A stretch of 38,963 nucleotides of DNA from Fibrobacter sp. (GTDB taxonomy: Bacteria; Fibrobacterota; Fibrobacteria; Fibrobacterales; Fibrobacteraceae): contig JAILDK010000066.1 of assembly GCA_024689485.1 (NCBI GenBank), positions 1 through 38,963 on the forward strand, written 5' to 3'. Under the pieces are notes generated by a model. The model was not told the DNA's origin, made no database searches, and saw only the letters and a program-made list of their open reading frames with translations. Position numbers and translations under genes: made by a program. Each line of letters starts with the position of its first letter. The stretch's first letter is position 1. Below are positions 16,469 through 32,665 of the stretch, one piece after another.

Positions 16469-17233
16469 TCAACTTTGCCGCAAATTTAGTTTTTCAAAAA
16501 AGTTCCAAATGGTTTCGCCTCGCATGGAGAGGGCTCTCACAAGAATTCCCTGGGAAAGAGAAGATACTCCGATGGTCCCTTGGAATGATTTTGCGAACGT
16601 TCGAATTTTTTCTTGAAGAATGGATAAAAGGCTTCCTTCAGGCGTATAAAAAAAGAGCATTCCATTGTGGGTGTAGCCTTGCCAAAATCCAAGACGGTAG
16701 TAATCCCATTTTTGGGGATCGATTAACGTATGGTCGGCGAATACAAGTTTATCTTCAACGTAGAATTTTGCACGGCTTCGGTAACTCTTCATTTGAAAAG
16801 CTTCTCCCATCCCGGTGCGCCCACAGGAAAAAATGTCGATAAAAGAAAAAGTCGCCGATTTGGCTAAATGGACTTCGGTCGTATTTTCAAAATGACTTTT
16901 GGCAAAAGGAATGGCGGGATAGGGCTTGTACTCCACATAAGCATTTTCTTTCACTGTAATATTCACATTTTTGAGGGTCTTTTTTCCGTTGGAATCAAAT
17001 ATCTTTTCATAACTCTGCGAAAGAAATGTGGCGTCGGAATTTTTACCGAATTCGAGCTTTAGCTTAAAATGGTCTCCACCCAGAAGCCCTGCGGATGCGG
17101 CCATCATCATGATATCGGCGTGAGGTCCGTTTTGAAAAGGGTGCATGATTTTATAGGGCGATGTATAGAACGCATTTTCGATTTCGGTTTTTCCGTTGCG
17201 AAAACAAGTTTTGATGTTTAGGGCACTCTCCGT
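16469..17233 (-). CDS. ureD: Urease accessory protein UreD (UreH), apparent ACG start
   Basis: The protein is the nickel-loading chaperone scaffold that binds apo-urease and UreF/UreG. Recognised by YKIMHPFQNG, ADIMMMAASAGLLGGD, SQSYEKIF, ENAYVEYKPYPAIPF, EVHLAKSATF and DHTLIDP, all close to Helicobacter UreH. The first ATG in frame (17146) would delete conserved N-terminal sequence (IKTCFRNGKTEIENAFYTSP), which is encoded directly upstream in the same frame. No ATG, GTG or TTG occurs in frame between the ureG stop and 17146. An AGGAGG (17238-17243, reverse strand) overlaps the end of ureG and is followed after four bases by in-frame ACG at 17233. From there the protein is 254 residues, near normal size. 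Either ACG is used or an ATG has mutated. Confidence 0.88.
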   Translation of the reverse strand, partial: TESALNIKTCFRNGKTEIENAFYTSPYKIMHPFQNGPHADIMMMAASAGLLGGDHFKLKLEFGKNSDATFLSQSYEKIFDSNGKKTLKNVNITVKENAYVEYKPYPAIPFAKSHFENTTEVHLAKSATFSFIDIFSCGRTGMGEAFQMKSYRSRAKFYVEDKLVFADHTLIDPQKWDYYRLGFWQGYTHNGMLFFYTPEGSLLSILQEKIRTFAKSFQGTIGVSSLSQGILVRALSMRGETIWNFFEKLNLRQS

Positions 17234-17241
17234 AAAGCCTC

Positions 17242-17850
17242 CTAAACGCCTTCAAACAAGACGCTTTTCTTGATCCATGCGATGACTTCATCGACTCCAT
17301 CTAAATTCATCAAATTGGTGAACAGATGCTTGCGACCATCTCGCATGCGGTCGGAATCTTTTGCCATTACATCTAGGTTTGCTCCTACCAGGGGAGCGAG
17401 ATCCGTTTTGTTGATGACTAAAAGGTCGGAACGCATAACGCCAGGGCCTCCTTTGCGAGGAATTTTTTCGCCTTGGGCAACATCAATGACGTAGATGGTT
17501 GCGTCTGCGAGATCCGGGCTGAAAGTAGCAGAAAGGTTGTCACCGCCACTTTCGATAAAGATGATTTGAACATCGGGAAATTTTTCGGCCATCTCATCGA
17601 CCGCTTCGAGGTTCATGGAACAGTCCTCGCGGATAGCTGTGTGTGGGCAACCTCCGGTTTCTACGCCGACAATTCTTTCTGGAGAAAGCGCTGAATTTTT
17701 GATGAGAAATTCTGCGTCTTCTTTGGTATAAATGTCATTGGTGATCACGCAAATGCTGTATTCTTGCGACATTTTGCGTGTTAATCTTTCGATGAGGGCG
17801 GTCTTGCCGGATCCTACAGGACCACCGACTCCAATTTTAACAAAGCTCAT
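17242..17850 (-). CDS. ureG: Urease accessory GTPase UreG
   Basis: The 202-residue SIMIBI-class GTPase delivers nickel to urease. The P-loop is [15 protein letters not shown] (7-21). Other motifs are the switch [13 protein letters not shown], the metal-binding CPH in [11 protein letters not shown], and the G4 base-recognition NKTDLAP. Length is typical (about 200). The ATG at 17850 follows AAAAAGGAAAA, a modest Shine-Dalgarno. The gene sits between ureF (12-base gap) and ureD, with the ureD ribosome binding site overlapping its stop. Confidence 0.96.
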
Positions 17851-17862
17851 TTTTTTTCCTTT

Positions 17863-18552
17863 TTAACTCATGTACAATCGAGTGTAAAGTTCTTCGTGTT
17901 TCATGCCTGCGATATCAAAACCTGTTCCTCCGATTCCGATAGCATCAATGGTCAAAGTCTTTGCGATTTCAATGGCTTGGATGATTTTTTTCTGTGAGCG
18001 ACTGAGAATCTGTTGTCCGATATTTTGACTCAGAGGAATCATTTTGACGCCGTTTGTAACGATGGCATTGAGTAAACTGTAGACGTATAAGCTTGCGGCA
18101 CTAGAAAGGTCAAGCTTTATATCATACGCGAATAGACCGACGATAATTGCATGATTTCCTGTGCAGGATTGATGCAAAATCATATCGCGATAGGCGTCGA
18201 TCGATTTGAACTCCGATTTGGCGGCTCCTTCGAAGTTTTGGTAGATTTTGAGAAATCGACTACAGAGCTTTTTACAACCGATGCGGACTTCTGCGGGGGA
18301 TTTGTAAGCTGTCGAAAGAGCGTCCAGATCGTCAATCCACTTACGATCGGTAGCATGCTTGTAGGCGAGCATCATCACGCCGAGATCGTTATAGGGCAAA
18401 AGCTGCAGGTAATCATCGACGAAGTTCTCTAAAGCTTTCCCATCAGAAATTTGATGCTTTGCGACAAGCGTCTCTAAGCCATTGGAAAGGGTGAATGCTC
18501 CAATGGGGAAGAGGCTGTCACAAATTTGCATCATTTGAAGTAAAGGACGCAT
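17863..18552 (-). CDS. ureF: Urease accessory protein UreF
   Basis: The 229-residue all-helical accessory protein bridges UreD and UreG in the urease activation complex. Diagnostic stretches are ICDSLFPIGAFTLSNGLET near the N-terminus and the TNGVKMIPLSQNIGQQIL region. The C-terminal part DIAGMKHEELYTRLYMS matches the conserved tail needed for UreD binding. Length agrees with the family. The ATG directly abuts the ureE stop (TAAATG), so translation is likely coupled. Confidence 0.94.
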   Translation of the reverse strand: MRPLLQMMQICDSLFPIGAFTLSNGLETLVAKHQISDGKALENFVDDYLQLLPYNDLGVMMLAYKHATDRKWIDDLDALSTAYKSPAEVRIGCKKLCSRFLKIYQNFEGAAKSEFKSIDAYRDMILHQSCTGNHAIIVGLFAYDIKLDLSSAASLYVYSLLNAIVTNGVKMIPLSQNIGQQILSRSQKKIIQAIEIAKTLTIDAIGIGGTGFDIAGMKHEELYTRLYMS

Positions 18553-19014
18553 TTAATGGGAATGGCTGTGCTCATGTGAAGAACTGGCGCCATGTGCTTT
18601 GCAGACGATGTAATCGGAGAAAAGATCTTTGACGATTTCCACATGAAATCCGAGGTGCTGGAGATAGGTATAGGTCGGTTCATCATACGGAACATGGACA
18701 CTGTTCTCTTTGATTTGGAGAGAAAGATGCCTGTTTCCGAGTTCAAAACAGACTCGACCCATTTCCTGCATACTTGTTACAGAAATACAGATGAGCTTGG
18801 TAAACTTCAATTGAACAGCGTAAATCTTTTCTCCGTCGAATAGAACATCTCCGTTGCTTAATGCTGTATCCACTTGGATGCCGATTTCGTTTCCATCGTC
18901 CGCTACTTTTAAAAGGCGACGCTTATCCAATTCAAACCATTCGAACGGAATTGCGACGATTTCTTTTGAACAGGGGTAATCTCGCAGATTGCCCAAAATT
19001 TTTGTTGTAATCAT
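18553..19014 (-). CDS. ureE: Urease nickel metallochaperone UreE
   Basis: The 153-residue protein has the UreE N-terminal domain (about 1-75, with IPFEWFELDKRRLLKVADDG) and a C-terminal metal-binding domain. The latter includes GNRHLSLQI, VPYDEPTYTYLQHLGF and a short His tail, HEHSHSH. UreE binds nickel and hands it to UreG. The start ATG overlaps the stop of the small membrane-protein gene as ATGA, showing tight coupling with it. The His tail is shorter than in Klebsiella UreE but clearly present. Confidence 0.95.
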   Translation of the reverse strand: MITTKILGNLRDYPCSKEIVAIPFEWFELDKRRLLKVADDGNEIGIQVDTALSNGDVLFDGEKIYAVQLKFTKLICISVTSMQEMGRVCFELGNRHLSLQIKENSVHVPYDEPTYTYLQHLGFHVEIVKDLFSDYIVCKAHGASSSHEHSHSH

Positions 19015-19385
19015 ACCGTTTCTCTCTGTTTTTTAGAAATGGAATGCATGACATGCGAAAAAACAAGAATTCCCCAGACGAGGGTTGTAAACGCGGCTAT
19101 GGCGACGCCTACGGTGGATATTTCCTCTATCATCGTTGCGACGCCTTCGGGAGATGTTGCTGCAGTAAAGAATGGATAAGACGCCATCAATTCTCCATTC
19201 AAAATATGATCGATGATGAGGGCTCCTGTTACAAGCCAAAGCATTTTGGAAAGCAACTTTCCTTCTTTGACAATCGTATCCCGGAGAATTGCTTTTTCCG
19301 AATCCTTCTTGTAGGTATGTTCGATGACAACCGTAGTCAGCGATGTTAAAACGGCTTCTGTCAGTGGGACTACAAAACAACTCAT
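19011..19385 (-). CDS. Small three-helix membrane protein in the ureI position of the urease operon
   Basis: The 124-residue protein has three likely membrane segments: about 3-21 (weak), 45-62 and 88-110. A charged stretch lies at 24-43, and the C-terminus is basic (SISKKQRETV). Polar residues in or near the helices include His60 and Glu65 in IIDHILNGEL, His111 and His114 in FSHVMHS, and His23. It has AAGGAG before ATG 19385, begins 26 bases after ureC and overlaps ureE, so it is a genuine operon member. It is too short for UreI/AmiS (about 195 residues, six helices) and for HupE/UreJ. I do not recognise a named family. Transport or gating of urea, ammonia or nickel is inferred from position only. 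Confidence 0.85.
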   Translation of the reverse strand: MSCFVVPLTEAVLTSLTTVVIEHTYKKDSEKAILRDTIVKEGKLLSKMLWLVTGALIIDHILNGELMASYPFFTAATSPEGVATMIEEISTVGVAIAAFTTLVWGILVFSHVMHSISKKQRETV

Positions 19386-19411
19386 GTGTGACTCCTTTTG
19401 AAAGTATTGTT

Positions 19412-21124
19412 TTAGAAGAGGAAATATCTTTGTGCGAGCGCCAGTTCTGTTGCGGCTTCACAGGTGATAATTTTCCCGTCTACTTTGACTGTGTAAGTTT
19501 CGGGATCTACTTCAATTTTTGAAATACGATTGTTGTGCACCATATCCTTTTTCCCGATATGGCGACAATTTTTGACAGGCAAGATGGTCTTGCTCAGATG
19601 AAGTTCGGATTGAATGTCGTGTTCGTATGCGTACTTCGAGACGAAAGTGACAGAGGTTTTGCTGAGTGCTTTTCCATGGCCTCCGAACATATCTGTATAG
19701 ACGACGGGTTCCGGTGTCGGAATGGATGCGTTGGCGTCTCCCATACGGGATGCACAGATAAAACCATTTTTGAGGATCATTTCGGGCTTTGCTCCGAACA
19801 TGTCCGGTCTCCACAACACGAGATCCGCCATTTTTCCGACTTCGACTGAACCGACGTAGTTCGAAATTCCATGCGTAATGGCGGGATTGATCGTGTATTT
19901 TGCGATGTAGCGTTTGACGCGGTTGTTGTCGTTTCTGGAACTATCGGAGTCGAGTGACCCGAACTGTTTTTTCATTTTGTCCGCGGTTTGCCAGGTGCGA
20001 GTGATGACTTCTCCCACGCGACCCATGGCTTGGGAATCGGAACTCATCATAGAGAAGATTCCCATGTCGTGCAGCACATCTTCTGCCGCGATGGTTTCTG
20101 GTCGAATGCGTGAATCTGCAAACGCAACATCTTCTTTATTCTTTTTGTCTAGATGATGGCAAACCATTAGCATGTCCAAGTGCTCGTCAATCGTATTTCG
20201 TGTAAACGGCATCGTTGGATTGGTTGACGAAGGAAGAACATTCGGAAATGAGGCTGCTCGAATGATGTCCGGAGCGTGTCCTCCTCCAGCGCCTTCTGTA
20301 TGATAGGTGTGAATGGTACGTCCCTTAAAGGCTGCGATCGTATCTTCGACAAAACCTCCTTCGTTGAGCGTATCCGTGTGAATGGAAACGGGAACGTCGA
20401 ATTCGTCAGCAACCTGAAGGCACGTGTCAATGGCTTTCGGTGTGGAACCCCAGTCTTCATGGAGTTTTAAGCCTGCGGCTCCTGCTTTGATTTGCTCACG
20501 AAGCGCTTCCGGATTCGATCCGTTTCCTTTTCCCAAGAATCCGAGGTTCATCGGTAAATCTTCGGCGGCTTCGAGCATTTTATGAATGTTGAATTCGCCC
20601 GGAGTACAGGTTGTTGCGTTGGTTCCGTCGGCAGGACCTGTGCCTCCTCCAATCATCGTCGTGATACCGCTGTAGAGAGCTGTATGAACTTGTGTTGGGG
20701 AAATAAAATGAATATGCGTGTCAATACCACCGGCCGTTAATATTAAGCCTTCGCCGGCAATCGCTTCGGTGGAAGCCCCGATGATCATTCCTGGAGTAAC
20801 GCCGTCCATGATATGCGGGTTCCCAGCTTTGCCAATTCCTGCGATTTTCCCGTCTTTAATGCCGATGTCGGCCTTGTAAATGCCAAAGGCGTCAATGACA
20901 AGAGCGCTCGTAATGACTGTGTCGAGACACTGTTCATCATGAAAGGGAACGGCTTGGCCCATACCGTCGCGAAGGGATTTCCCGCCGCCGAATTTAGCTT
21001 CGTCACCGTAAACGCAATAATCTTTTTCAACTTCGACGATTAAGGAGGTGTCTGCTAAACGAACACGGTCGCCAACGGTTGGACCGTACATTTGCGCATA
21101 ATCTTTTCTTGAAATTTGAATCAT
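19412..21124 (-). CDS. ureC: Urease alpha subunit UreC (Helicobacter UreB type)
   Basis: The 570-residue catalytic subunit hydrolyses urea to ammonia and carbamate. All active-site residues are visible: His137 and His139 (GGIDTHIHF), the carbamylated Lys220 and His222 (GLKLHEDWG), His249 (SIHTDTLNE), His275 ([14 protein letters not shown]), the flap Cys322-His323 (MVCHHLD) and Asp363 ([19 protein letters not shown]). ATG 21124 gives the normal N-terminus [19 protein letters not shown]; a longer open frame upstream only runs into ureAB. The start follows the ureAB stop by one base. The sequence closely resembles Helicobacter UreB. Confidence 0.98.
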
Positions 21125-21125
21125 A

Positions 21126-21806
21126 TCAGATGCCCATAAAACCTTTTGCTCGTGCTTTTTCAAAAGCGGCCTGTTTGACGTCTTTGTCGTCCATCTTTCC
21201 TTCCACAAGTCCGTTTAGACCGTAACCTTCCCGACTTCCACCGATTTCAACGAGAGTCACGCTTTTCGTCTCTCCGGGTTCAAAACGAACGGCGGTTCCG
21301 GCAGGGATATCGAGACGCATGCCGTAAGAAAGTTCTCGGTCAAAGATGAGCTTCTTGTTGACTTCAAAAAAGTGAAAGTGCGAACCGATTTGAACAGGCC
21401 TGTCAGAGGTATTCACGACATCCATTTGGGTTGTGCGCTTGTTTGCGTTGAGCTCAATGAATCCTTTTTCGGTTATGATTTCACCCGGAATCAGTTTCCC
21501 GGTAGAAGGAATCGGATCGTGAACGGTCACGAGCTTTGTTCCATCAGGGAAGGTTGCTTCGACTTGAACTTCGTGAATCATTTCGGCAACGCCATTCATG
21601 ACTTGTTCTGCAGTCAGGAAATGCCTTCCGGCTTCCATCAGTTCTGAAACGTTTTGACCTGCACGCGCGCATTCCAAAAGTTTCATGGAGATATAGGCGA
21701 TCGCTTCTGGATAGTTCAATCGAAGCCCGCTGTCTAAGCGGTTCTTGGCGAGAATTCCGGCAAAGTGCAGCGAGAGTTTTTCTGTTTCTCTGGGGGTTAA
21801 TCGCAT
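21126..21806 (-). CDS. ureAB: Fused urease gamma-beta subunit (Helicobacter UreA type)
   Basis: In this 226-residue protein, residues 1-100 are the gamma subunit ([51 protein letters not shown]). About 103-226 is the beta subunit ([44 protein letters not shown]). Most bacteria encode these separately; fusion is characteristic of Helicobacter. It ends at [10 protein letters not shown] and lacks the roughly dozen-residue C-terminal extension of H. pylori UreA. ATG 21806 is chosen because the family N-terminus starts there and GGGA precedes it. The open frame upstream overlaps urtE. Confidence 0.96.
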
Positions 21807-21823
21807 ATTTTTCCCTTTTAAGT

Positions 21824-22525
21824 TCAATTGGTCATCAGTTTTTGAACTTCGGCTTTGTTGCAGAGCGAGGTTTGATCGTGGAAAATGATGTTTCCTTTTT
21901 CCATGATGTTGACGTAGTGGCTGTTCTCCATCACAAAATCCAGGTACTGTTCGACGAGCAAGATGGTGATACCTTTCCATTCATTGATCTTTCGAATAGC
22001 CCTTCCGATGTCCTGGATAATTGACGGCTGAATTCCTTCAGTGGGCTCGTCGAGAATCAGAATTTTTGGATTCTGAACAAGAGCTCTTGCAATGGCTAAT
22101 TGCTGCTGCTGACCGCCGGACAGATCGCCTCCGCGCCGTTTGGCGAATTTGGGAAGGATCGGGAAAAGATCAAAAATATAATCCGGGATATTTCCTTTTC
22201 CTCCTAGGGGTTGTAAGCCTAATTCCCAGTTCTCCTGTACCGTCATCTGTTGAAAAATATCGCGCCCTTGGGGAACGTAACCGATTCCCATGCGAACTCG
22301 TTCATAAGAGGGGAGTTTGGAAATTTCTTTTCCATTGAAGAGTAAAGATGTTGTGGGACTTGTTTTCACGAGTCCCATGATACTCTTGAGAGTTGTACTT
22401 TTTCCAACGCCGTTTCGACCGATCAAACTGACGATTTTCCCATCGGGAATATCCAAATTTAATCCTTCGATAACGCGGCTTTCGCCGTAATAAGAATCCA
22501 TACTTTTAATGGTCAACATTTTCAT
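21824..22525 (-). CDS. urtE: Urea ABC transporter ATP-binding protein UrtE
   Basis: The 233-residue ATPase belongs to the branched-chain amino acid/urea (LivF-like) class. It has Walker [11 protein letters not shown]-loop YVPQGRDIF, signature [15 protein letters not shown], Walker [15 protein letters not shown] and the switch His region replaced by LLVEQYLDF, as is usual in LivF/UrtE. It partners UrtD to power UrtBC. ATG 22525 overlaps the urtD stop as ATGA, with GAGGAG upstream; a second ATG lies two codons later. ureAB begins 17 bases after its stop, tying uptake to hydrolysis. Confidence 0.94.
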
Positions 22526-23298
22526 TCTCCTCCACGTCCCAGATAAACTTTTTGAACAGTGGAATCCGATAGAACTTCGGCTACAGATCCTTCTTTCAAG
22601 ATTTTTCCTTCGTGAAGAACCGTAACGCGATTTGCAATTTGCTTGACAAAATCCATGTCATGTTCAATCACGACAATGGAACATTCTTTTTGGATTTCTT
22701 TTAAAATTACTCCGGTCTTAAAAGTCTCAGGCTTTCCCATGCCGGCCGCAGGTTCATCGAGCATGATGACTTCTGGCTCCTGCACAAGCTGCATGGCGAT
22801 TTCAAGCCATTGCTTTTCACCGTGGGCAAGCGCTCCTGCTCTCCATTGGCGTTTATCGGAAAGGCCTACTTTCTCTAAGGTTTCTGCAATTTTCTTGACC
22901 TCTTTATCTCGCATCTTGCGCAAGATGGTATCCACAATTCGCTTTCCTTTGCGCAAGGAAAGGATCATGTTCTCTTCAACGGTTAGATTCACAAAAACCG
23001 AGGGAACCTGAAATTTTCTTCCGATGCCAAGCCATACAATCTTGTATTCTTTCATCCCAGTTAGCGTAATGGGCTTTTTATACATCGGGTTGAATACAAT
23101 GTTTCCCTGGGTCGGTTTGGTTTTGGCGCAGATGATGTCAAGTAGGGTCGTTTTCCCGGCACCATTGGGACCGATGAAAAAATGAATATCGTTTCTTTTC
23201 ACCTTTGTTGTAACATCGGTCAATGCGTAAAATCCGTCAAAACAGACAGAAATATGGTTGATTTCCAAAACATATTCGGAAAGAAGTTCTGTTGCCAT
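22522..23298 (-). CDS. urtD: Urea ABC transporter ATP-binding protein UrtD
   Basis: The 258-residue LivG-like ATPase has Walker A GPNGAGKTT, UrtD-type signature LAHGEKQWLEIAMQL, Walker B VIMLDEPAAGMG and switch VVIEHDMDFVKQIA. The LAHG-E-KQWLEI form of the signature distinguishes UrtD from LivG. AGGAGG precedes ATG 23298. It lies eight bases after urtC and overlaps urtE. Confidence 0.94.
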   Translation of the reverse strand: MATELLSEYVLEINHISVCFDGFYALTDVTTKVKRNDIHFFIGPNGAGKTTLLDIICAKTKPTQGNIVFNPMYKKPITLTGMKEYKIVWLGIGRKFQVPSVFVNLTVEENMILSLRKGKRIVDTILRKMRDKEVKKIAETLEKVGLSDKRQWRAGALAHGEKQWLEIAMQLVQEPEVIMLDEPAAGMGKPETFKTGVILKEIQKECSIVVIEHDMDFVKQIANRVTVLHEGKILKEGSVAEVLSDSTVQKVYLGRGGE

Positions 23299-23306
23299 AA
23301 ATCCTC

Positions 23307-24401
23307 CTAGGCCTTAACCTTTCGATCGCGAATCTTTGCGATGAAGTTAGGAGCCTTCTCTTGAACAAGCCCGACAATTCCTCCTTTGAAGAAGAGAATC
23401 GTGACGCAGAACAGAATCCCGATGATGTATTGCCAAATTTCTACCGTACTTCCGGAACTCAGGTTGTATTCGCAAATGTTGATGAAGAAAGCGCCGATGA
23501 CGGCTCCGACAATCGTTCCGCGTCCTCCGATAGCGACCCAAATGACCATACCGATGGAATAAGTGATCGTCATTTGCGATGGGGTAATGCATCCATTGAA
23601 GTTCACAAAGATGGCTCCAGCAATGCCTGCAAATACAGCGGAGACGACATAAATGAATGTTTTGAATCGGCTCACGGGATATCCTGAAAAGTATGTCCTG
23701 TTTTCGCCGTCGCGGATGGCGATCAAAACCTTTCCGAATTTCCGGGTTACAAGGAATCTGGAAATCGCATAAATGAGCACCAAAGCAAAGAGGGAAATAT
23801 AAAACAGCGTAAACATGTTGCCTTGGTTTGCGGATCCTTTGATGCTTCCAAAGATGGATTTGATTTCGGTAATGCCCACGTTTCCATTTGTATAAGGAGA
23901 CATGGCGATAAAGATGGAGCACGCGGCCCATGTAAGAGCTTGGGAAATAATCGAAAAGTAAACGCCTTTTACACGATTCTTGAAGATGAAATATCCGACG
24001 AGCCAAGCGGTAAGACCCGGGATAATTAAAATCAAAAATAAAGATCCTGGCGCATGAAGAAACGGCTTCCAGATCAACGGCAATTCTGTCAATCCTCCGA
24101 TATGCATAAAATCTGTGATTTGACCGCCGGTTGCCTGGAGTTTTAAATACATCGCCATCGCATATCCGCCGAGACCAAAATACAGCCCATGTCCAAGACT
24201 TAAAATTCCCGTGTAGCCCCAGATCAAATCAATTCCAATCGCAACGATTGCAAAACTGATGCATTTTCCGAGGAAAAGGATCGTGGAGCCTCCATTCAGA
24301 ACGCCTGCCGCCAATAGAACCGGCATGATGGCAAGAATGAAAACAATAATTCCAAAAGTGGTATCTGAGCCGTGCTTTAGAAAAAGATTGAGTAAACGCA
24401 T
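23307..24401 (-). CDS. urtC: Urea ABC transporter permease UrtC
   Basis: The 364-residue inner-membrane permease is of the LivM/UrtC class, with about ten hydrophobic segments. Family features are DLIWGYTGILSLGHGLYFGLGGYAMAMYLK near residues 60-90 and GRGTIVGAVIGAFFIN near the C-terminus. The insertion after the third helix region (GGQITDFMHIGGLTELPLIW) is typical of urea rather than amino-acid permeases. GGAG precedes ATG 24401, and the gene starts 11 bases after urtB. Confidence 0.94.
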   Translation of the reverse strand: MRLLNLFLKHGSDTTFGIIVFILAIMPVLLAAGVLNGGSTILFLGKCISFAIVAIGIDLIWGYTGILSLGHGLYFGLGGYAMAMYLKLQATGGQITDFMHIGGLTELPLIWKPFLHAPGSLFLILIIPGLTAWLVGYFIFKNRVKGVYFSIISQALTWAACSIFIAMSPYTNGNVGITEIKSIFGSIKGSANQGNMFTLFYISLFALVLIYAISRFLVTRKFGKVLIAIRDGENRTYFSGYPVSRFKTFIYVVSAVFAGIAGAIFVNFNGCITPSQMTITYSIGMVIWVAIGGRGTIVGAVIGAFFINICEYNLSSGSTVEIWQYIIGILFCVTILFFKGGIVGLVQEKAPNFIAKIRDRKVKA

Positions 24402-24412
24402 AGATTCTCCGA

Positions 24413-25315
24413 CTAGTCCAGGTTACGGCTTTTGATGACAAATAGACCTTGGGGGCGCTTTTGCAAGAAGACGATGACAATCAAAAGGACGACCGCTTTG
24501 GCGATTGTGGAAGATGTGTAATTTTCAGTGAAAATCGAACTGATTCCGATGATTCCTGAACCGATAACAGTACCGATTAGGTTCCCAACGCCTCCGAGCA
24601 CGACAGCCATAAAGGAGTTCACGATATAGCTTTGGCCAACTGTAGAATCAATAGAGCCTAATAAAGCAACAGAACAACCCGCAACTCCTGCAAAACCAGA
24701 ACCCATTGCGAAAGTCAGGTTGTCTACACGTCTGGAATTAATTCCCATGCATTGAGCCATGGGACGGTTTTGCATGACAGCTCGCATCTGGCGTCCAAAA
24801 TTGGATTTGTACATCACAAACCACACTGCCACCATGCAGAGGGACACAAGCAGAATGATAAAGACTCGATTGTACGAAAAAGTGCAGTCGCCGAAGCTGA
24901 TTCCACCGCTTAAAAAAGAAGGTGCATTCACGTTGACGCCTTGAGTACCGAAGATGCTCCGCGCAGCTTGTTGTAATATTAAACTAATGCCCCATGTGGC
25001 CAAAAGACTGTCGATTTCGCGGCCATAGAGTCTTGAAATGACAAATTTTTCAAGGAGACTTCCCAGTAAAAAGGCGACACCGAAGGCTGCAAAAATCGAA
25101 ACGAAATAATAAAGGCTTCCAATGGCACTCGGTAAAAACTGAGTGAAAACTTGTTGGACAACGTAAGTTGTATAGGCGCCAATCATCACAAATTCGCCGT
25201 GAGCCATATTGATCACGCGCATTACGCCAAAGGTAATGGCTAGCCCTAAAGAAGTCAGTAGAATAATTGAACTGAGACTAAGGCCATTGAAAAGAATGTT
25301 GACTGCTTGTTCCAA
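24413..25315 (-). CDS. urtB: Urea ABC transporter permease UrtB, TTG start
   Basis: The 300-residue inner-membrane permease is of the LivH/UrtB class, with FGVMRVINMAHGEFVMIGAYTTY, MRAVMQNRPMAQCMGIN and VLGGVGNLIGTVIGSGIIG. A longer frame from GTG 25390 exists, but that codon lies inside a terminator-like hairpin and adds a non-family leader. TTG 25315 (MEQAVNILFNGLSLSSI) has GAGG six bases upstream and gives the normal N-terminus. Use of TTG plus the upstream hairpin should lower UrtB output relative to UrtA. Confidence 0.92.
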   Translation of the reverse strand: MEQAVNILFNGLSLSSIILLTSLGLAITFGVMRVINMAHGEFVMIGAYTTYVVQQVFTQFLPSAIGSLYYFVSIFAAFGVAFLLGSLLEKFVISRLYGREIDSLLATWGISLILQQAARSIFGTQGVNVNAPSFLSGGISFGDCTFSYNRVFIILLVSLCMVAVWFVMYKSNFGRQMRAVMQNRPMAQCMGINSRRVDNLTFAMGSGFAGVAGCSVALLGSIDSTVGQSYIVNSFMAVVLGGVGNLIGTVIGSGIIGISSIFTENYTSSTIAKAVVLLIVIVFLQKRPQGLFVIKSRNLD

Positions 25316-25363
25316 AATATCCTCGTCTGCTCTGGCTAAAAGATGATGGATGCTGATTTCTTC

Positions 25364-25391
25364 AAAAAGTCGTGCCCCGTGAAGGAGCACG
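25364..25391 (-). terminator. Partial terminator/attenuator between urtA and urtB
   Basis: On the reverse strand CGTGCTCC and GGGGCACG form an 8-bp stem (one G-U pair) with a five-base loop, followed by ACTTTTT. It lies in the 110-base space after the binding-protein gene. In ABC operons such elements usually let the binding protein be made in excess while some transcripts read through. Confidence 0.65.
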
Positions 25392-25425: not shown

Positions 25426-26652
25426 TTAATTCAATGGCTGGAGACCTGCCTTGACTGCCCAATCGTAAGTGGTAAGGTACGGGTCAGGAGATACAGGTGC
25501 AGGAGTTGCAAAGACTTCGTGAATCAGACCATCTTCAGCCACTTCGCCGATACGGACAGGCTTCGAAAGGTGCTGATTTTTACCGTCGATGACCACTTTA
25601 CCTTCTGGAGCGGTGAATTCCACAGAACCCGAACGGATCACGCTGAGAACGGAGTCTACAGCAAAGCTTCCTGCCTTTTTAACCGCTTCTGCCCAGAGGT
25701 AAACGGCGTCGTATGCGGCTTCTGCAGGGTCGGAAGTCACACGGTTGGAACCGAACTTTGCCTTGTATGCGGCAACGAAAACGTCATTTTCGGGTGTCTT
25801 GGTCGTTTGATAGTAGTTCCAAGAAACCAGGTGACCTTTCAAAATGCTCGGCCCAATCGTGGAGACTTCTTCTTCTGCAATCGAGAATGACATGGTCATG
25901 TATTCTTTGCTTGTGTAGTTCTTTTCAGACATCTGCTTGAAGAAGGACACGTTACCCGTTCCGTTCAACGTGTTGACGATTACATCAGGCTTTGCCACTT
26001 CGATCTTCGAAATGATAGCGGCAAAATCTGTCTGATCCATATCCGCATATTCTTCGCCGACGACAGAAATGCCTGCGGCTTTTGCCTGTGCGTTGATAAT
26101 CATATTGGCCGTGCGCGGGAATACGTAATCGGAACCGAGCAGGAAGAACTTTTTATAGCCTTTTTCGATCAAGTATTCAATCGCGGGAACGATCTGCTGA
26201 TTTGGAGCTGCGCCTGTATAGACAATATTCGGAGAGGCTTCCATGCCTTCATACTGGACTGGATACCAGAGCAACGATTTGTATTCTTCAAAAATCGGTT
26301 TGACCGCTTTACGCGACGAGGATGTCCAGCAACCGAAAACGGTAGCGACTTTTTCGATATCAACAAGTTTTTCTGCTTTTGTTGCAAATGTTGCTGGTTC
26401 CGAAGCACCGTCTTCTTCTACGAAAATGATTTTTTTCCCGAGGACACCACCGGCGGCATTAATCTGCTCAATAGCAAGAACTTCAGCGTCACGAACCGCT
26501 TTTTCGCTGATGGCCATCGGTCCCGTTAAAGAATGCAGTAAGCCGACCTTTACGGTTGCCTGGCTTTTTTCTTCCTCGCCTCCACAGCCGAAAATTCCGG
26601 CTGTCAAAGCTCCTGCCGCAAGAGTGGTTAAAAGAGTTTTTTTCAGGTTCAT
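25426..26652 (-). CDS. urtA: Urea ABC transporter substrate-binding lipoprotein UrtA
   Basis: The 408-residue protein has a lipoprotein-type signal (MNLKKTLLTTLAAGALTAG, lipobox GIFGC, Cys near 23). The type I periplasmic-binding fold follows: VKVGLLHSLTGPMAISE, NAAGGVLGKKI, VFGCWTSSSRKAV, YPVQYEGMEASPNIVYTGAAPNQQ and FLLGSDYVFPRTAN. The last three are diagnostic of urea/short-amide binding proteins. ATG 26652 is preceded by GAGGA and starts the signal peptide; an upstream in-frame extension has no support. As the first gene it would receive the sigma-54-type promoter at 26686-26705. Confidence 0.96.
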   Translation of the reverse strand: MNLKKTLLTTLAAGALTAGIFGCGGEEEKSQATVKVGLLHSLTGPMAISEKAVRDAEVLAIEQINAAGGVLGKKIIFVEEDGASEPATFATKAEKLVDIEKVATVFGCWTSSSRKAVKPIFEEYKSLLWYPVQYEGMEASPNIVYTGAAPNQQIVPAIEYLIEKGYKKFFLLGSDYVFPRTANMIINAQAKAAGISVVGEEYADMDQTDFAAIISKIEVAKPDVIVNTLNGTGNVSFFKQMSEKNYTSKEYMTMSFSIAEEEVSTIGPSILKGHLVSWNYYQTTKTPENDVFVAAYKAKFGSNRVTSDPAEAAYDAVYLWAEAVKKAGSFAVDSVLSVIRSGSVEFTAPEGKVVIDGKNQHLSKPVRIGEVAEDGLIHEVFATPAPVSPDPYLTTYDWAVKAGLQPLN

Positions 26653-26685
26653 TGTATCCTCGTTGTTGAAGGGTTTTAGTCTGCT

Positions 26686-26705
26686 ATAAGCAAAAGCCTT
26701 GCCAA
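26686..26705 (-). promoter_or_regulatory. Sigma-54 (RpoN) promoter upstream of urtA
   Basis: On the reverse strand TTGGCA-A-G-N4-TTGCT has GG and GC exactly ten bases apart. It matches the -24/-12 consensus TTGGCACG-N4-TTGCW except for one base (A instead of C). The predicted start site is near 26678, leaving a leader of about 26 bases with a GAGGA ribosome site. Confidence 0.75.
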
Positions 26706-26791
26706 ACAATTCAAAAGGACGTTGGAAAAAACTTGCAAAAAAATATCTTGTAAAATTTCGCAAAAAAGGCTTGTTAGATTTTGACGGTTAC

Positions 26792-26810
26792 TTTGTACAA
26801 AATTCTAGAA
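26792..26810. promoter_or_regulatory. Adjacent palindromes, possible enhancer-binding site for the urt promoter
   Basis: TTTGTACAAA (26792-26801) and TTCTAGAA (26803-26810) are perfect palindromes one base apart. They lie about 90-110 bases upstream of the -24 element, the normal range for activators of sigma-54 promoters. Neither matches the NtrC consensus closely. Confidence 0.35.
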
Positions 26811-26823
26811 GATTCATTTTTGT

Positions 26824-26855
26824 AAAAAGAAACGACAGAACTGTTGTTCTGCCGT
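26824..26855 (-). terminator. Intrinsic terminator of the ATP-grasp/alpha-E operon
   Basis: On the reverse strand ACGGCAGAAC and GTTCTGTCGT form a ten-bp stem (one G-U pair) around an AACA loop, followed by TTCTTTTT. It lies 30 bases after the alpha-E stop and separates this operon from urtA. Confidence 0.88.
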
Positions 26856-26884
26856 TCCCTTTTCACGGAGAGATGTTTTTCTGC

Positions 26885-27814
26885 CTAGTTGAAAAAATCT
26901 TTCCAAATCCAATTGCCGAGTTCTGCCAAGTGTTTCTGGTACTTTTCGATTTTTTCGTGAAGGCCTTCCGCAATGATTTCATCGATTGTGGTGAAGTCAA
27001 TGTCGGCGCGGATCTTTCCAATGAGACGAAGCGAATTCGAATTGGCCTTGTGGTGAAGCGCGATGTTTTTGAGCGTCCATTCTGCCTGATCCAAGCAAAA
27101 ACGCATGGAACGCGGAAATTCCTGGGACAGCAACAAAAATTCGGCGACATTGTGCGGCGTTGTATTGGAATAGCGTTTGCGGAACATTTCAAAGGCGCTG
27201 ACGCTTTTGAGAACCGCGTTCCATTGGACCGTATCCAAGACCAAGCCTACCATGCTGATGTCGGGAAGGAGAATGTAATACTTCACATCGAGAATGCGCG
27301 ACGTCTGATCGGCGCGTTCCAAAAGTGTTCCAAGTCTTGCAAAGCTCCAGGCGAGATCGTGATTCATGGTGCCGTAGATGATGCCGATCGTCAACTGTCC
27401 AAATTCCTTGACTTTGGAATAGAAGTTGTGCGGACTTTCCAAAGCTTCTTTTTGAACTTCGGGATCTTTGAGCTTTAAATAGAACTGATTGACTGTAATC
27501 CAAAGTTCCGAAGAGATGCTTTCTCGGATACAGCGGGCGTTTTCACGTGCTGCGGCAACACAAGAAAGAATGCTGTTCGGATTCTCCAAATCGAAAGTCA
27601 AAAAGATCAGCGCATTTTGAATGGTGACATGGGAATATTTTTTGAAGAACATTTCCGTATCGCCGACGGTTTGCAGTACAGGTTCCCAGGGACGTTCTTC
27701 CCCGGGTAAATCCAGCTGCAGCTGCAAATTCACATCGATGCATCGGGCAATATCTTCTGCTCGTTCAATATAACGTCCAAACCAGTAAATGGAATGGGCA
27801 ACGCGACTTAACAT
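26885..27814 (-). CDS. Alpha-E domain protein (DUF403)
   Basis: The 309-residue all-helical protein begins MLSRVAHSIYWFGRYIERAEDIARCIDVN, the family hallmark. It contains ENARCIRESISSELW, IYGTMNHDLAWSFARLGTLLERADQTSRILDVKYY and FCLDQAEWTLKNI. Alpha-E proteins occur in operons with circularly permuted ATP-grasp amidoligases and transglutaminase-like proteases and are thought to help make or process a peptide tag or modification. The biochemical role is not settled. GGAG precedes ATG 27814, and it is the last gene of the four-gene operon, 23 bases after the ATP-grasp gene. Confidence 0.93.
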   Translation of the reverse strand: MLSRVAHSIYWFGRYIERAEDIARCIDVNLQLQLDLPGEERPWEPVLQTVGDTEMFFKKYSHVTIQNALIFLTFDLENPNSILSCVAAARENARCIRESISSELWITVNQFYLKLKDPEVQKEALESPHNFYSKVKEFGQLTIGIIYGTMNHDLAWSFARLGTLLERADQTSRILDVKYYILLPDISMVGLVLDTVQWNAVLKSVSAFEMFRKRYSNTTPHNVAEFLLLSQEFPRSMRFCLDQAEWTLKNIALHHKANSNSLRLIGKIRADIDFTTIDEIIAEGLHEKIEKYQKHLAELGNWIWKDFFN

Positions 27815-27837
27815 AGTTTACTCCGAAATAAAAGGGT

Positions 27838-29325
27838 TTATTGTTGCTGTTGTTCCATCCATTGGCGAGCCTGCCCGTGTTCTGGAGCACGCTCGTTTTC
27901 GGCGAGAACCCATGTGTCTTTACAACCGCCGCCTTGCGAACTATTGACGACGACAGAACCTTTTTTCAATGCGACGCGGGTCAGTCCTCCGGGAAGAATG
28001 TAAGTCTCTTTTCCCTGGATAATGTAAGGACGCAAATCCACATGGCGACCTTCAAATTTTTCGTCGATAATGCAAGGGACGCGGCTCAGGGAAATCATCG
28101 GCTGGGCAATGTAATTGCGCGGATTGGCGAGAATTTTTTTCTTGAACGCCGCGCATTCTTCCGCTGTCGATTTGGGGCCGACGAGCATTCCGTAGCCTCC
28201 CGATTCATTGGTCGCTTTGACGACCATTTTGTCAATATTCTCTAAAACGTGCTTCATCTGCTTGGAATCTTCGCAGACAAATGTCGGAACGTTGGAAATC
28301 AGCGGATCTTCGCCGAGGTAATAGCGGATAATATCCGGAACGAATGTGTAAATCGCCTTGTCATCTGCGACGCCGCAGCCCGGCGCGTTTGCCAGGGCTA
28401 CATTGCCCGCCTTATAAGCTTCGATGAGCCCTGGCACGCCCAGCACGGAGTCGGGGCGAAACACATTCGGATCCAAAAAATCATCGTCGATTCGACGGTA
28501 AATGACATGAACCTGTACAAGTCCATCTGTTGTTCGTGCGTAAACCTTTTTTTCTTTGACGATCAAATCGTTTCCGCACACGAGATCGACGCCCATCTGC
28601 TGCGCAAGATAAGCGTGTTCGTAGTAGGCGGAATTGTAAACGCCCGGAGTCAGCACGACCACTTTCGGGGAATCGATTCCTTCCGCCAGATATTCTAACG
28701 ATTCGCGCAATCGGACGCAGTATTCGTCCACAGGGCGAATCGGGCAACGGCTAAAAACCTGCGGGAACGTCCGTTTCAGAATCTGACGGTTCTGTAAAAC
28801 ATACGAGACGCCGCTTGGACAGCGCATGTTGTCTTCTAAAACGTAGAAGGTTCCGTCCGAATCTCGTACAAGATCCGTCCCGGTGATGTGCGCCCAGATG
28901 CCTTTGGGCGGGGTAAAGTTTTCCATCTGCGGACGGTAAGCGGGGCACGTGCGAATCAAGGATTCAGGAACGATTCCGTCGCGAAGGATTTTCTTTTCGC
29001 CGTAGATGTCGTTCAAAAAACAGTTCAACGCAGCTGTCCGCTGCCTTAAACCTTTGTCGAGAATCTTCCAATCTTCCGCCGAAATAATGCGTGGAATTAC
29101 ATCAAACGGAATGATCTTATCCTTGCCATCTTTACTTCCGTAAACGGCAAAGGTAATGCCATTGTCGAAGAAGGCAGACTCCGCCGCTTTCTGACGTCGC
29201 TGCATTTCGCCTTCCGGAAGACCGTTGATACGCGAAAACAGCGTCTCCGCCACAGGGCGGGGAGAACCGTCTGGAAGACAGAGCTCGTCATAGAAGCCTT
29301 CTGTATCGTAATGGGCAAATTTCAT
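27838..29325 (-). CDS. Circularly permuted ATP-grasp protein (DUF404/DUF407), stand-alone
   Basis: The 495-residue predicted amidoligase carries FDVIPRIISAEDWKILDKGLRQRTAALNCFLNDIYG, IWAHITGTDLVRDSDGTFYVLEDNMRCPSGVSYVLQNR with the metal-ligand Glu/Asn pair in LEDN, KATNESGGYGMLVGP as nucleotide-loop region, and RHVDLRPYIIQG near the end. All expected conserved segments appear intact, so it is likely active. The product of the family is unknown. The C-terminus is Gln-rich (WMEQQQQ). AGGAG precedes ATG 29325, seven bases after the transglutaminase stop. Confidence 0.92.
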   Translation of the reverse strand: MKFAHYDTEGFYDELCLPDGSPRPVAETLFSRINGLPEGEMQRRQKAAESAFFDNGITFAVYGSKDGKDKIIPFDVIPRIISAEDWKILDKGLRQRTAALNCFLNDIYGEKKILRDGIVPESLIRTCPAYRPQMENFTPPKGIWAHITGTDLVRDSDGTFYVLEDNMRCPSGVSYVLQNRQILKRTFPQVFSRCPIRPVDEYCVRLRESLEYLAEGIDSPKVVVLTPGVYNSAYYEHAYLAQQMGVDLVCGNDLIVKEKKVYARTTDGLVQVHVIYRRIDDDFLDPNVFRPDSVLGVPGLIEAYKAGNVALANAPGCGVADDKAIYTFVPDIIRYYLGEDPLISNVPTFVCEDSKQMKHVLENIDKMVVKATNESGGYGMLVGPKSTAEECAAFKKKILANPRNYIAQPMISLSRVPCIIDEKFEGRHVDLRPYIIQGKETYILPGGLTRVALKKGSVVVNSSQGGGCKDTWVLAENERAPEHGQARQWMEQQQQ

Positions 29326-29332
29326 AATTCTC

Positions 29333-30214
29333 CTATTCTGGATTGTTTTTTAAGTCCACATTGACTGCGACTTTTAATGTATGGGGTCCTCCACCCGTAA
29401 TCACGCCCTTGAGAGGGCTTACGTCTCCAAAATCACGTCCCCAAGCGATGATGATATGCTCACTTCCGCCGAGGATATTGTTTGTCGGGTCAAATTCCAC
29501 CCAGCCGTGGCCGGGAAAGAATACGCTGACCCATGCATGGGACGCATCGGAACCAAAAAGCTTTTTCTCTCCTTTGGGCGGGTACGTTCGCAAGTAGCCG
29601 CTGATGTACCTGCACGGCAAATGCAGCGAGCGCAAACACCCGATCATCAAATGCGCGAAATCCTGACAGACGCCTTTTCTTCCGCGAAGAATTTCGGCGG
29701 GCATAGCCCCGATGCGCGTCGCTCCGGGCGTGTAATAGCAGTCCGTGTAAATGCGCGTCATCAGTTCGCTTGCACATTCAAACAAGGGTCTTCCCGCGGT
29801 AAAACTTTTCTTCGCATAGTTTTTGACGGAATCGTCAAAGTTTGCAAAGGGCGATGGGAATGCGTACATCGAAGCGTCCAGTTCTTCTGCCGAATGCGCA
29901 TGTTCAATCTGTTGAACGACATCTTCCCACGGCGGGGAAGTCTTGGGCGGATCTTCGGCGCGAACGTCGACGACTCCAGACGTTTGAATGCGAAAGTGTT
30001 GATGTTCTTCTTCCACGCTAAAGGCAAGCGCTCGATTTCCGAAGATGTCTAAGCGTTCCTGCTTGGCGGCTGGAAAAGGTTCAATTTCAAGACGGTGAGA
30101 AATCCAATGCTGTCGGGGAACCTCCCTGGGTAAAAGATGGGCTAAATGATTGCTGAAAAGGACGGGCAGAGAATAGTCGTAAACGGTTTCGTGATCGATC
30201 TGATAGACGGGCAT
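29333..30214 (-). CDS. Transglutaminase-like cysteine protease/amidase
   Basis: The 293-residue cytosolic protein has an N-terminal beta domain (about 1-80; YQIDHETVYDYSLPV) of the bacterial transglutaminase-N type. The catalytic core follows, with Cys183 in RKGVCQDFAHLMIG, His226 in DASHAWVSVFFPG and Asp242 in GWVEFDPTN. Such proteins sit beside ATP-grasp/alpha-E genes and are proposed to cleave or transfer the peptide bonds those enzymes make. AAGGAG precedes ATG 30214. It lies nine bases after the large fused gene. Confidence 0.93.
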   Translation of the reverse strand: MPVYQIDHETVYDYSLPVLFSNHLAHLLPREVPRQHWISHRLEIEPFPAAKQERLDIFGNRALAFSVEEEHQHFRIQTSGVVDVRAEDPPKTSPPWEDVVQQIEHAHSAEELDASMYAFPSPFANFDDSVKNYAKKSFTAGRPLFECASELMTRIYTDCYYTPGATRIGAMPAEILRGRKGVCQDFAHLMIGCLRSLHLPCRYISGYLRTYPPKGEKKLFGSDASHAWVSVFFPGHGWVEFDPTNNILGGSEHIIIAWGRDFGDVSPLKGVITGGGPHTLKVAVNVDLKNNPE

Positions 30215-30223
30215 AAGTTCTCC

Positions 30224-32665
30224 TTAAACTTCCGTCACAAGCGCGTGGACAATCCCCGCGCGAGGTGCGTGATTTAAGTAGAGCCTGTTGATCAGCTCGG
30301 CCGTTTTTTCAAAAGAAGCGATGCTTTTCGAAATCAAACGTTCAAGGCTCGGACGGCGAGCGTTTTCTTCCACCGAAAGGCTCTTGACATCCGCCAAACG
30401 CAGCTCTGTCTGCAACCGCAAAAGTTCTCGATCGAGCGGCAAAAAAATCGAATCCACGCTCGCATCTCCAGGCAAATGTTTCGCTTCTTCGCAAAGGCGC
30501 AAAACCTGATACGCAACGCTCCTCGGATTGGATTCGTCGCAAAGCAAAAGGTCCAGCACGGGAACCGTCTGCAAACGACCGCCATACCGCCGATGGTAAG
30601 TCATCGTACCGTCGCCGACTTCCAAAAGGGCCTGCAACAACAGCAACTTGAGGGAATCGTCTGCTGGCACATCGACAAGCATCGATTCCAAAAGGCGCAA
30701 CAAGCGAATGCCGCGTTCAATCCGCCGCCCGATTTCCTGAAAGCGCCATTCGTGTCCGCGGGTCATCGATTCCGCCATGACTCCGGAAACGGCTGCGCTG
30801 TCGGTCAGCACGCTTGTCAAATAGGGGATGACCGCCGCTGCGCCAGTTCCGTCGGGCATCTTCGCTGAACCAAAGCTGCTCAAGTAATTCCAAAGATCGT
30901 CCGAAATGCGGTCTCTCAGCTGCACGGAAAGATCTCGAATCTGTTTGAGCGGAATTTGCAAACCGTCGGAACAATCTTTGCGTAAAACGAAATATCTCAA
31001 AGCGTTTTCAGGATCTCCTTCTGTAGAATGGATGCTTTTGAGGAGCCAAGGAATTTCGGGCATTTCGGGCCACGATTCATCCGATAGACGCTCCGCGAGG
31101 ATTCTTGCCACGCGGGACATCATGTTGGTTGCTGCAAGAGCACGTCCTAGGTGATACAGGTTTTCCGCTGCACGGCTTGGCAAATCGCCGCCCGCCCGGG
31201 TCGGCGTGACCACGCTTTCCGCCGGAGCGAGGAGCGAAAATGTGGCGACGGGATGCCCTGCCAAAACCCAAATGTCCTTTTCACCTGTCTGAACAGGTTC
31301 TCCAGGTGCAGAAGGAATCTGGTAAGTCCCATAACCTCCCGGCATGGCGATTGTTTCGGACGGTGTATTGACGCAAAAGAATCGCATCTTGACGTTTGCG
31401 GTGACCCAGCTTTTGTTTCGGTAAACGGGTGCGGTTGAGCCGTCTGTCGCTTCAACGGCAACGTATTTTTCTGGTTCTTTTTCGACCGCTTGCATCAGCG
31501 CGAGCTTTCCTGTGACGGTTAAATCTTTATAAGTCTTAAAATTCTCCTTTCCGAAGATTTTTCGGAACTTCCATTTTTCAGGTTCGTCAAAAATGCGATC
31601 CTTGCTTTTGGAGTCTGCACACCAAAGCGTTTCCACACTCGGAAGCAAAAGTTCTTCATTCAAAAGCGTTTTGCAGACCTCGGGCAAAAAAGGGTTGAAT
31701 ATCGAATGCTCGAGCGCGCCGGAACCGAGGAAGTTCGCCATCGCCGCATTTCCGGCGCGAATGGTGCTGATCAGCCCGACCGCACCTTCGCCCGTATCGA
31801 CGCGCAACTCCAAAGGATCGCAAGCCGTATCCTCGACGCGGCGAAACAGGGTCCCAATCTTTTTCAGCCCCACGAGCGTCTTCATGTACACCTGCATCCG
31901 CCGAACCGCTAAATCGTCGTTTTCCACCAGTGGAATTCCGAGATAGCGGGCGAGTACCGCATCTTCGGCACGGCGTTCCGAATTCGGAGCGGATGCGAGC
32001 ATCGCGACGACGCCTTCAATATTCTGTTCCTTTTGCAAAAGGTTCAGGCAGTCGAGCAAAGTCTTGAAAAATCCCGCCAACCGTTCCGTGTACAGCTTGC
32101 GGAAAAGTTCTGGAAAGGCGCGGCTGACTCCGATCCTGTTTTCCAAGGCTCTTCCAAGTCCATCAGGAACTTGCAAATAATCCTCGGTCACGCGAAAGTT
32201 CCCGTCTGCATCCCGAATCAAATCGGAACCCATCAGATGAATAAAAATTCCGTAGGCCGGTTTGACCTTCCAGGCGACCGATAAAAAATCCGGATTGGCG
32301 AACAAAAGCGCAGGAGGGAGTTTTCCCGTTTTCCAAAGCGTCTGCTCGCCGTACATATCTTCGGCTAGTGCGTTAAAGAGCCTTGCACGTTGCGTCAAAC
32401 CTTCTTTTAATCCGCGCCATTCCTTTGCTGAAATGATCAAGGGCAATGGGTCGGTACGCTTGGATTCGCCGCTGCCCGCGAAAGAAATATCGTTTGAACT
32501 CAGAACGTGATAAAGACGGTTGCAGCGTCTTTCAAATTCCGAGGCGTCCAAGGAATCCATCTTTGCCATTGCGGCAAAGTCGTCGAAGCGTGTTCCTTCT
32601 GGCGGAGAATATTCCGAACCGCCGATTTTGAATTTTAAATTTGGCATACACTCTTTATCTCGCAT
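30224..32665 (-). CDS. Fusion of circularly permuted ATP-grasp and alpha-E domains, ATP-grasp possibly degenerate
   Basis: In this 813-residue protein, residues about 75-470 align with the stand-alone ATP-grasp protein (PLIISAKEWRGLKEGLTQRARLFNAL, IFIHLMGSDLIRDADGNFRVTED). The metal-ligand LEDN is here TEDY, the Gly-rich nucleotide-loop segment is replaced by an unrelated VAVEATDG stretch, and the RPYI segment is absent. From about 495 to 813 is an alpha-E domain (SRAAENLYHLGRALAATNMMSRVARILAERLS). It may act as a regulatory or scaffold partner of the stand-alone enzyme. ATG 32665 is used; ATG 32647 (MPNLKFKIGG) is equally possible. Neither has a strong Shine-Dalgarno, and a terminator hairpin ends ten bases upstream. 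Confidence 0.88.
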   Translation of the reverse strand: MRDKECMPNLKFKIGGSEYSPPEGTRFDDFAAMAKMDSLDASEFERRCNRLYHVLSSNDISFAGSGESKRTDPLPLIISAKEWRGLKEGLTQRARLFNALAEDMYGEQTLWKTGKLPPALLFANPDFLSVAWKVKPAYGIFIHLMGSDLIRDADGNFRVTEDYLQVPDGLGRALENRIGVSRAFPELFRKLYTERLAGFFKTLLDCLNLLQKEQNIEGVVAMLASAPNSERRAEDAVLARYLGIPLVENDDLAVRRMQVYMKTLVGLKKIGTLFRRVEDTACDPLELRVDTGEGAVGLISTIRAGNAAMANFLGSGALEHSIFNPFLPEVCKTLLNEELLLPSVETLWCADSKSKDRIFDEPEKWKFRKIFGKENFKTYKDLTVTGKLALMQAVEKEPEKYVAVEATDGSTAPVYRNKSWVTANVKMRFFCVNTPSETIAMPGGYGTYQIPSAPGEPVQTGEKDIWVLAGHPVATFSLLAPAESVVTPTRAGGDLPSRAAENLYHLGRALAATNMMSRVARILAERLSDESWPEMPEIPWLLKSIHSTEGDPENALRYFVLRKDCSDGLQIPLKQIRDLSVQLRDRISDDLWNYLSSFGSAKMPDGTGAAAVIPYLTSVLTDSAAVSGVMAESMTRGHEWRFQEIGRRIERGIRLLRLLESMLVDVPADDSLKLLLLQALLEVGDGTMTYHRRYGGRLQTVPVLDLLLCDESNPRSVAYQVLRLCEEAKHLPGDASVDSIFLPLDRELLRLQTELRLADVKSLSVEENARRPSLERLISKSIASFEKTAELINRLYLNHAPRAGIVHALVTEV

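Follow-up and report, generated by a model that had tools for sequence, protein, structure and literature searches.

A conserved sigma-54 promoter before the urea transporter gene urtA in a relative of Fibrobacter, and its company of nitrogen and chaperone genes

Sigma-54 (RpoN) holds RNA polymerase at its promoters in a closed complex, the opening of which is driven by ATP. As the consensus of these promoters we used YTGGCACGRNNNTTGCW, while TGCACY-N5-RGTGCA and TGT-N10-ACA describe the sites of the activators NtrC and NifA. Sigma-54 control has been predicted for urease COGs, mainly of alpha- and beta-Proteobacteria, and for PII in the available part of PMC12316311, which also predicts –24/–12 promoters before grpE, groES, dnaK, and genes of small heat-shock proteins in Bacteroidota and Planctomycetota; Fibrobacter is absent from its main text. 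Here, we describe a urea operon within a 38,963-nucleotide stretch of Fibrobacterota DNA (the window). Like the urea genes under sigma-54/NtrC control in Proteobacteria, it is preceded by a –24/–12 element in a genome that encodes RpoN and enhancer-binding proteins. The promoter thus adds a member to a kind already known. Loci termed "Fibrobacter" below belong to a genus (g2) that we took as Fibrobacter and that is distinct from the window genome's own genus.

The urtA promoter and its conservation

One strand carries all frames of the operon, which opens with urtA and urtBCDE, continues with the urease genes, and closes with ureD (Table 1); a 124-aa frame between urease alpha and UreE (19011–19385) had no Pfam match. 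UrtA is present in 17 of the 150 genomes searched, including the window's (18 loci in all), and absent from all five other genomes of the window's genus. UrtA is 70–84% identical when records of Fibrobacter are compared with those of several Treponema and numerous Clostridia, most of them gut-derived, a similarity across phyla hinting at transfer between them.

Table 1 Features of the urea locus in the window
Feature	Position	Strand	Evidence
Sigma-54 promoter TTTGGCAAGGCTTTTGCT	26689..26706	-	sequence, matrix score, conservation
urtA ATG (26650-26652) and ribosome site GAGG (26658-26661)	26650..26661	-	read from sequence
Terminator-like hairpin with U-rich tail	26822..26866	-	-24.9 kcal/mol, z -5.79
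Palindromes TTTGTACAAA (26792-26801) and TTCTAGAA (26803-26810)	26792..26810	.	chance-like
urtA, urea ABC transporter substrate-binding protein	25426..26652	-	TIGR03407, 514.7 bits
urtB, urtC, urtD, urtE, urea ABC permeases and ATPases	21824..25390	-	TIGR03409, TIGR03408, TIGR03411, TIGR03410, all above cut-off
Urease gamma/beta fusion, urease alpha, 124-aa frame, UreE, UreF, UreG-type, UreD	16469..21980	-	

The original prediction had placed a near-consensus GG-N10-GC promoter at a suitable distance from the urtA ribosome site, and both parts held. The sequence TTTGGCAAGGCTTTTGCT departs from the –24/–12 consensus by one base and is the window's best site by 13 bits; the ribosome site and the ATG follow downstream, with 36 nt between the sigma-54 site and the start codon. 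Its –24 GG (26702–26703) and –12 GC (26690–26691) have the GG-N10-GC spacing and lie, with one mismatch, within the pattern TGGCACG-N4-TTGCW; transcription of urtA would then start near 26678. The terminator-like hairpin closes the Alpha-E/ATP-grasp operon upstream and, given this termination, urtA most likely needs a promoter of its own.

With up to two mismatches, the plain consensus matches three times in the window against 2.0 expected, and such chance frequency makes the motif by itself weak evidence. The urtA site is the only match in the window with a single mismatch to YTGGCACGRNNNTTGCW. Scored with a matrix of 64 family sites from which it was itself excluded, it reaches 22.8 bits (next best in the window, 9.9), a value attained in one of 50 shuffled windows. 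These frequencies, the one-base departure from the family's TTGGCACG, and the lack of a recovered activator site upstream of urtA in the window would all suit a chance or relict match, with urtA transcribed instead from a conventional promoter of the sigma-70 type somewhere in the AT-rich gap. We regard this as very improbable, as the same site stands in the same place before urtA in related genomes: TGGCA-N6-TTGC is found at all eight family loci and at nine of ten class-level loci, the tenth (L052) having TGGCA-N6-TCGC. Furthermore, the spacer between the site and an enhancer block in Fibrobacter (see below) is not conserved, unlike the site itself.

With a matrix built from 51 non-urtA promoters, the sites at the eight family loci score 23.2–30.9 bits, each 51–55 nt before the match, and the class-level urtA sites just 3.8–12.7 bits, with L047 and L048 scoring higher at another position. 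When 69 named urtA relatives were inspected, two Fibrobacter records matched 12 and 13 of the 13 consensus bases. None of the other 67 matched at least 11 of 13 positions within 350 bases, a count in which the upstream bases of L215 are not covered and late match starts (for example, L206, L208, and L222–L224) leave mostly coding sequence, so that a promoter further out could be missed. The case for the predicted urtA promoter is therefore carried by position and conservation, not by the motif alone and, at the level of sequence, the sigma-54 promoter before urtA is supported as genuine and as conserved in evolution.

Candidate operators upstream of urtA

Palindromes TTTGTACAAA and TTCTAGAA had been proposed as NtrC-like activator sites. 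Both are present, at distances of 88 and 99 nt upstream from the –24 GG. Their proposed role found no support: in 2000 shuffles of the AT-rich gap, 33% contained a palindrome of at least 10 bp and 5.7% such an adjacent pair, and neither palindrome is the element conserved in Fibrobacter. Nor did the gap contain a canonical NtrC site at up to three mismatches (25 in the window versus 31 expected) or a NifA site.

The Fibrobacter element is a conserved block of 66 columns shared by six urtA loci, roughly 100–160 nt upstream of –24 and nearer to it in L042, L043, and L040. It recurs before a Fibrobacter CP-ATP-grasp operon, where it scores 27.2 bits (E 5e-7) and the highest of 300 shuffles reached 6.5; a profile search of the window gave 1.8 bits, equaled by 12 of 300 shuffles. 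In the window, an operon for CP-ATP-grasp, Alpha-E, and transglutaminase proteins (26885–32665) adjoins urtA upstream. Given the urtA enhancer block in the Fibrobacter relative (L093), this little-known CP-ATP-grasp/Alpha-E system may be nitrogen-controlled; its place beside urtA is compatible with shared nitrogen control and no proof of it. The window's CP-ATP-grasp/Alpha-E operon is itself closely preceded by a weak site, TTTGGCATAAATAATGCG.

The Fibrobacter urtA block contains TTTACA-type half sites, like the glnK, gltB, and glutamine synthetase promoters. From 17 nitrogen promoters (Fibrobacter urtA included; the window's own excluded and near-duplicates L108, L110, and L041 dropped before the search), we obtained the palindrome TTTACAAAATTTGTAAA, scoring 79.0 versus at most 46.3 in 12 shuffled sets. 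Learned without urtA, from eight Fibrobacter glnK, gltB, and glutamine synthetase promoters, it matched two of six Fibrobacter urtA promoters (0 and 1 of 500 shuffles), was weak at a third (25 of 500), and was clearly missing at the remaining three (81–197 of 500). Its match in the window was equaled by 262 of 500 shuffles. Genome-wide, allowing one mismatch, TTTACAAAATTTGTAAA occurs in 20 rows (16 places) in five genomes versus 2 for the control; seven of these places, every one in Fibrobacter, have a sigma-54 site nearby, as against none of four in the window's genus.

A separate palindrome from nine glnK and glnN promoters of the window's genus scored above shuffles. We rejected it, as these promoters are closely related, the search went through eight widths between 12 and 20, and its best urtA match fell inside the terminator stem; the corresponding matrix gave no reliable site upstream of urtA.

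Nitrogen control and the sigma-54 machinery

The original prediction hinged on an rpoN gene and proposed looking for enhancer-binding proteins, and the genome contains both: a single rpoN, complete with all three domains (AID, CBD, and DBD), and nine matches to PF00158, five of them strong enhancer-binding proteins (E below 1e-60). Among these proteins, L002 (GAF-AAA) is encoded directly behind gltD and is the best candidate for the activator of urtA in this genome. Another, L004, combines a receiver domain, an AAA domain, and a Fis-type HTH, and its gene lies ~0.4 kb behind that of a sensor kinase. In one Fibrobacter genome (G029), a GAF-type activator (L131) is encoded after two genes which, on inspection by eye, belong to amino acid biosynthesis. 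A sigma-54 site and a pair of nitrogen palindromes lie ahead, an arrangement that suggests autoregulation.

Scanning for further promoters, we found 25 matches to TGGCA-N6-TTGCW in this genome against 16 to the reversed pattern. In our judgment, eleven stand a short way ahead of a gene: those of the nitrogen group are urtA, glnK, and type III glutamine synthetase, those of the chaperone group dnaK, two grpE, groES, htpG, clpB, and hsp20, and the last encodes a 270-aa sigma factor. The other 14 were inside frames or not resolved. The stricter TTGGCAYG-N4-TTGCW had 77 matches in seven genomes (7 reversed), of which five identical ones in G003 look like a repeat and are to be discounted, and 35 in five further genomes (2 reversed), repeats in G007 included. 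Identical –24/–12-like words occur at L062, L069, and L125 (G003) and at L294 and L299 (G007), those in G003 close to what looked, by eye, like a Cas1-type gene; they are probably repeats, not promoters.

A search for the motif before other nitrogen genes had been suggested, and in this genome the scan returned strong sites at type III glutamine synthetase and, with 27.6 bits, at glnK-amtB. The gltB gene of Fibrobacter relatives also follows a strong site; the gltBD operon of this genome had none at 11 bits. Profile checks in this genome covered DnaK, two GrpE, GroES, HtpG, ClpB (N-terminal part alone, below the model's full-length cut-off), Hsp20, PII, glutamine synthetase III, and AmtB, with Hsp20, PII, and one GrpE falling below cut-offs; in relatives, where gene names behind sigma-54 sites were mostly read by eye, they were limited to three proteins: GltB (G003), the ATP-grasp protein (L093), and the activator (L153).

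From rpoN, the five enhancer-binding proteins, and the sites at glnK-amtB and type III glutamine synthetase, we infer that urtA would depend on sigma-54, with nitrogen limitation as its signal and an enhancer-binding protein as its activator. RNA polymerase with sigma-54 would sit at 26689–26706 as a closed complex; an upstream-bound enhancer-binding protein, active at nitrogen shortage, would open it by ATP hydrolysis; and urtABCDE and the urease genes would then be transcribed, allowing the cell to take up urea and hydrolyze it to ammonia. We consider a switch of this kind under nitrogen shortage quite probable. Nitrogen control, also part of the original prediction, is our best reading of the urtA promoter and draws on the company it keeps, namely glnK-amtB and type III glutamine synthetase here and gltB in relatives.

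RpoN in Fibrobacteraceae is not nitrogen-specific: since it also fronts chaperone genes, nitrogen control does not follow from the use of this sigma factor by itself. A real urtA promoter might accordingly answer to an activator that senses urea itself, envelope stress, or growth phase, as would accord with the family's sigma-54 sites at chaperone genes and at the gene of a sigma-70-type factor, and with a nitrogen-type operator not being recovered in the window. This reading appears unlikely to us in view of the TTTACA-type half sites that the Fibrobacter urtA block shares with glnK, gltB, and glutamine synthetase, and of the nitrogen palindrome found at two of six Fibrobacter urtA promoters, and weakly at a third, when learned without them. 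The strict chaperone palindrome, moreover, occurs only three times in this genome and not at urtA. Nitrogen control thus remains our preferred reading. Urea recycling feeds cellulose degraders of the gut, and the urtA promoter is its probable switch in this Fibrobacter relative.

A gene for a 270-aa sigma-70-type factor stands behind a strong sigma-54 site in this genome (L026/L270) and at L071, L094, L101, L107, and L123; six sigma-70-type matches are listed for this genome. A third palindrome, GTCATAAATTTATGAC, learned from six promoters of this gene, failed on one held-out promoter and was set aside.

Chaperone genes behind sigma-54 sites

Sigma-54 also appears to drive heat-shock chaperone genes in the family, a side result that is of more interest than the urtA promoter. 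The dnaK, grpE, groES, htpG, clpB, and hsp20 genes have –24/–12 sites, most of them accompanied by a 17-bp palindrome, TGTTTCA-NNN-TGAAACA. Chaperone loci with sigma-54 sites are L011–L016, L030, and L033 in this genome and lie within L055–L125 and L225–L240 in relatives. Learned from 25 chaperone promoters (six near-duplicates dropped: L055 twice, L082, L105, L112, and L115), the palindrome scored 139.8 versus at most 56.4 in shuffled sets. Genome-wide, it occupies 16 places in six of seven genomes (one control match), and each of these has a sigma-54 site no further than about 120 nt away; at htpG, the promoter comes first and the palindrome follows downstream.

On 19 held-out promoters, the chaperone matrix reached at least 19 bits in seven of nine from dnaK, groES, grpE, and hsp20 and in none of three from htpG, and gave at most 9.4 bits in six nitrogen promoters and 5.6 bits in one sigma factor promoter. 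A strict pattern combining palindrome and promoter was found in just two of 80 genomes and was discarded as too strict for use.

Of six genomes tested for HrcA, five (G000, G003, G029, G021, and G111) yielded none and one (G093, a class-level relative) had it. There, an activator of the L004 type (L241, 5734–7149) follows hrcA, dnaK, and dnaJ on the same strand; dnaK and dnaJ were read by eye, and the gap separating hrcA from dnaK presumably contains grpE. When all activators were compared, the L004 type was the only one with a full-length relative in each of five genomes. This occurrence and the linkage in G093 make an L004-type protein a candidate for binding the chaperone palindrome, and suggest a chaperone response resting on an ATP-driven activator instead of HrcA.

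In a broader scheme, sigma-54 of Fibrobacteraceae would be split by operator into a nitrogen set (urtA, glnK-amtB, glutamine synthetase, gltB, and the CP-ATP-grasp operon) and a heat-shock set (dnaK, grpE, groES, htpG, clpB, and hsp20) whose palindrome is bound by an NtrC-type activator, enhancer-dependent activation having taken over the chaperones as HrcA was lost. We see the chances of this scheme as evenly balanced. The operators behind it can be tested, in a phylum on whose gene regulation the literature searched has little to say.

Compared with NtrC control in Proteobacteria, the Fibrobacterota window differs in having no canonical NtrC site in the gap before urtA, and the candidate activator is a GAF-type protein encoded behind gltD rather than a demonstrated NtrB-NtrC pair. 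The chaperone genes invite another comparison: as in Bacteroidota and Planctomycetota, in the available part of PMC12316311, grpE, groES, dnaK, and small heat-shock genes of Fibrobacteraceae follow –24/–12 elements. The chaperone set extends this reported sigma-54 trend into another phylum and, beyond what that part describes, adds a shared palindrome and a candidate activator.
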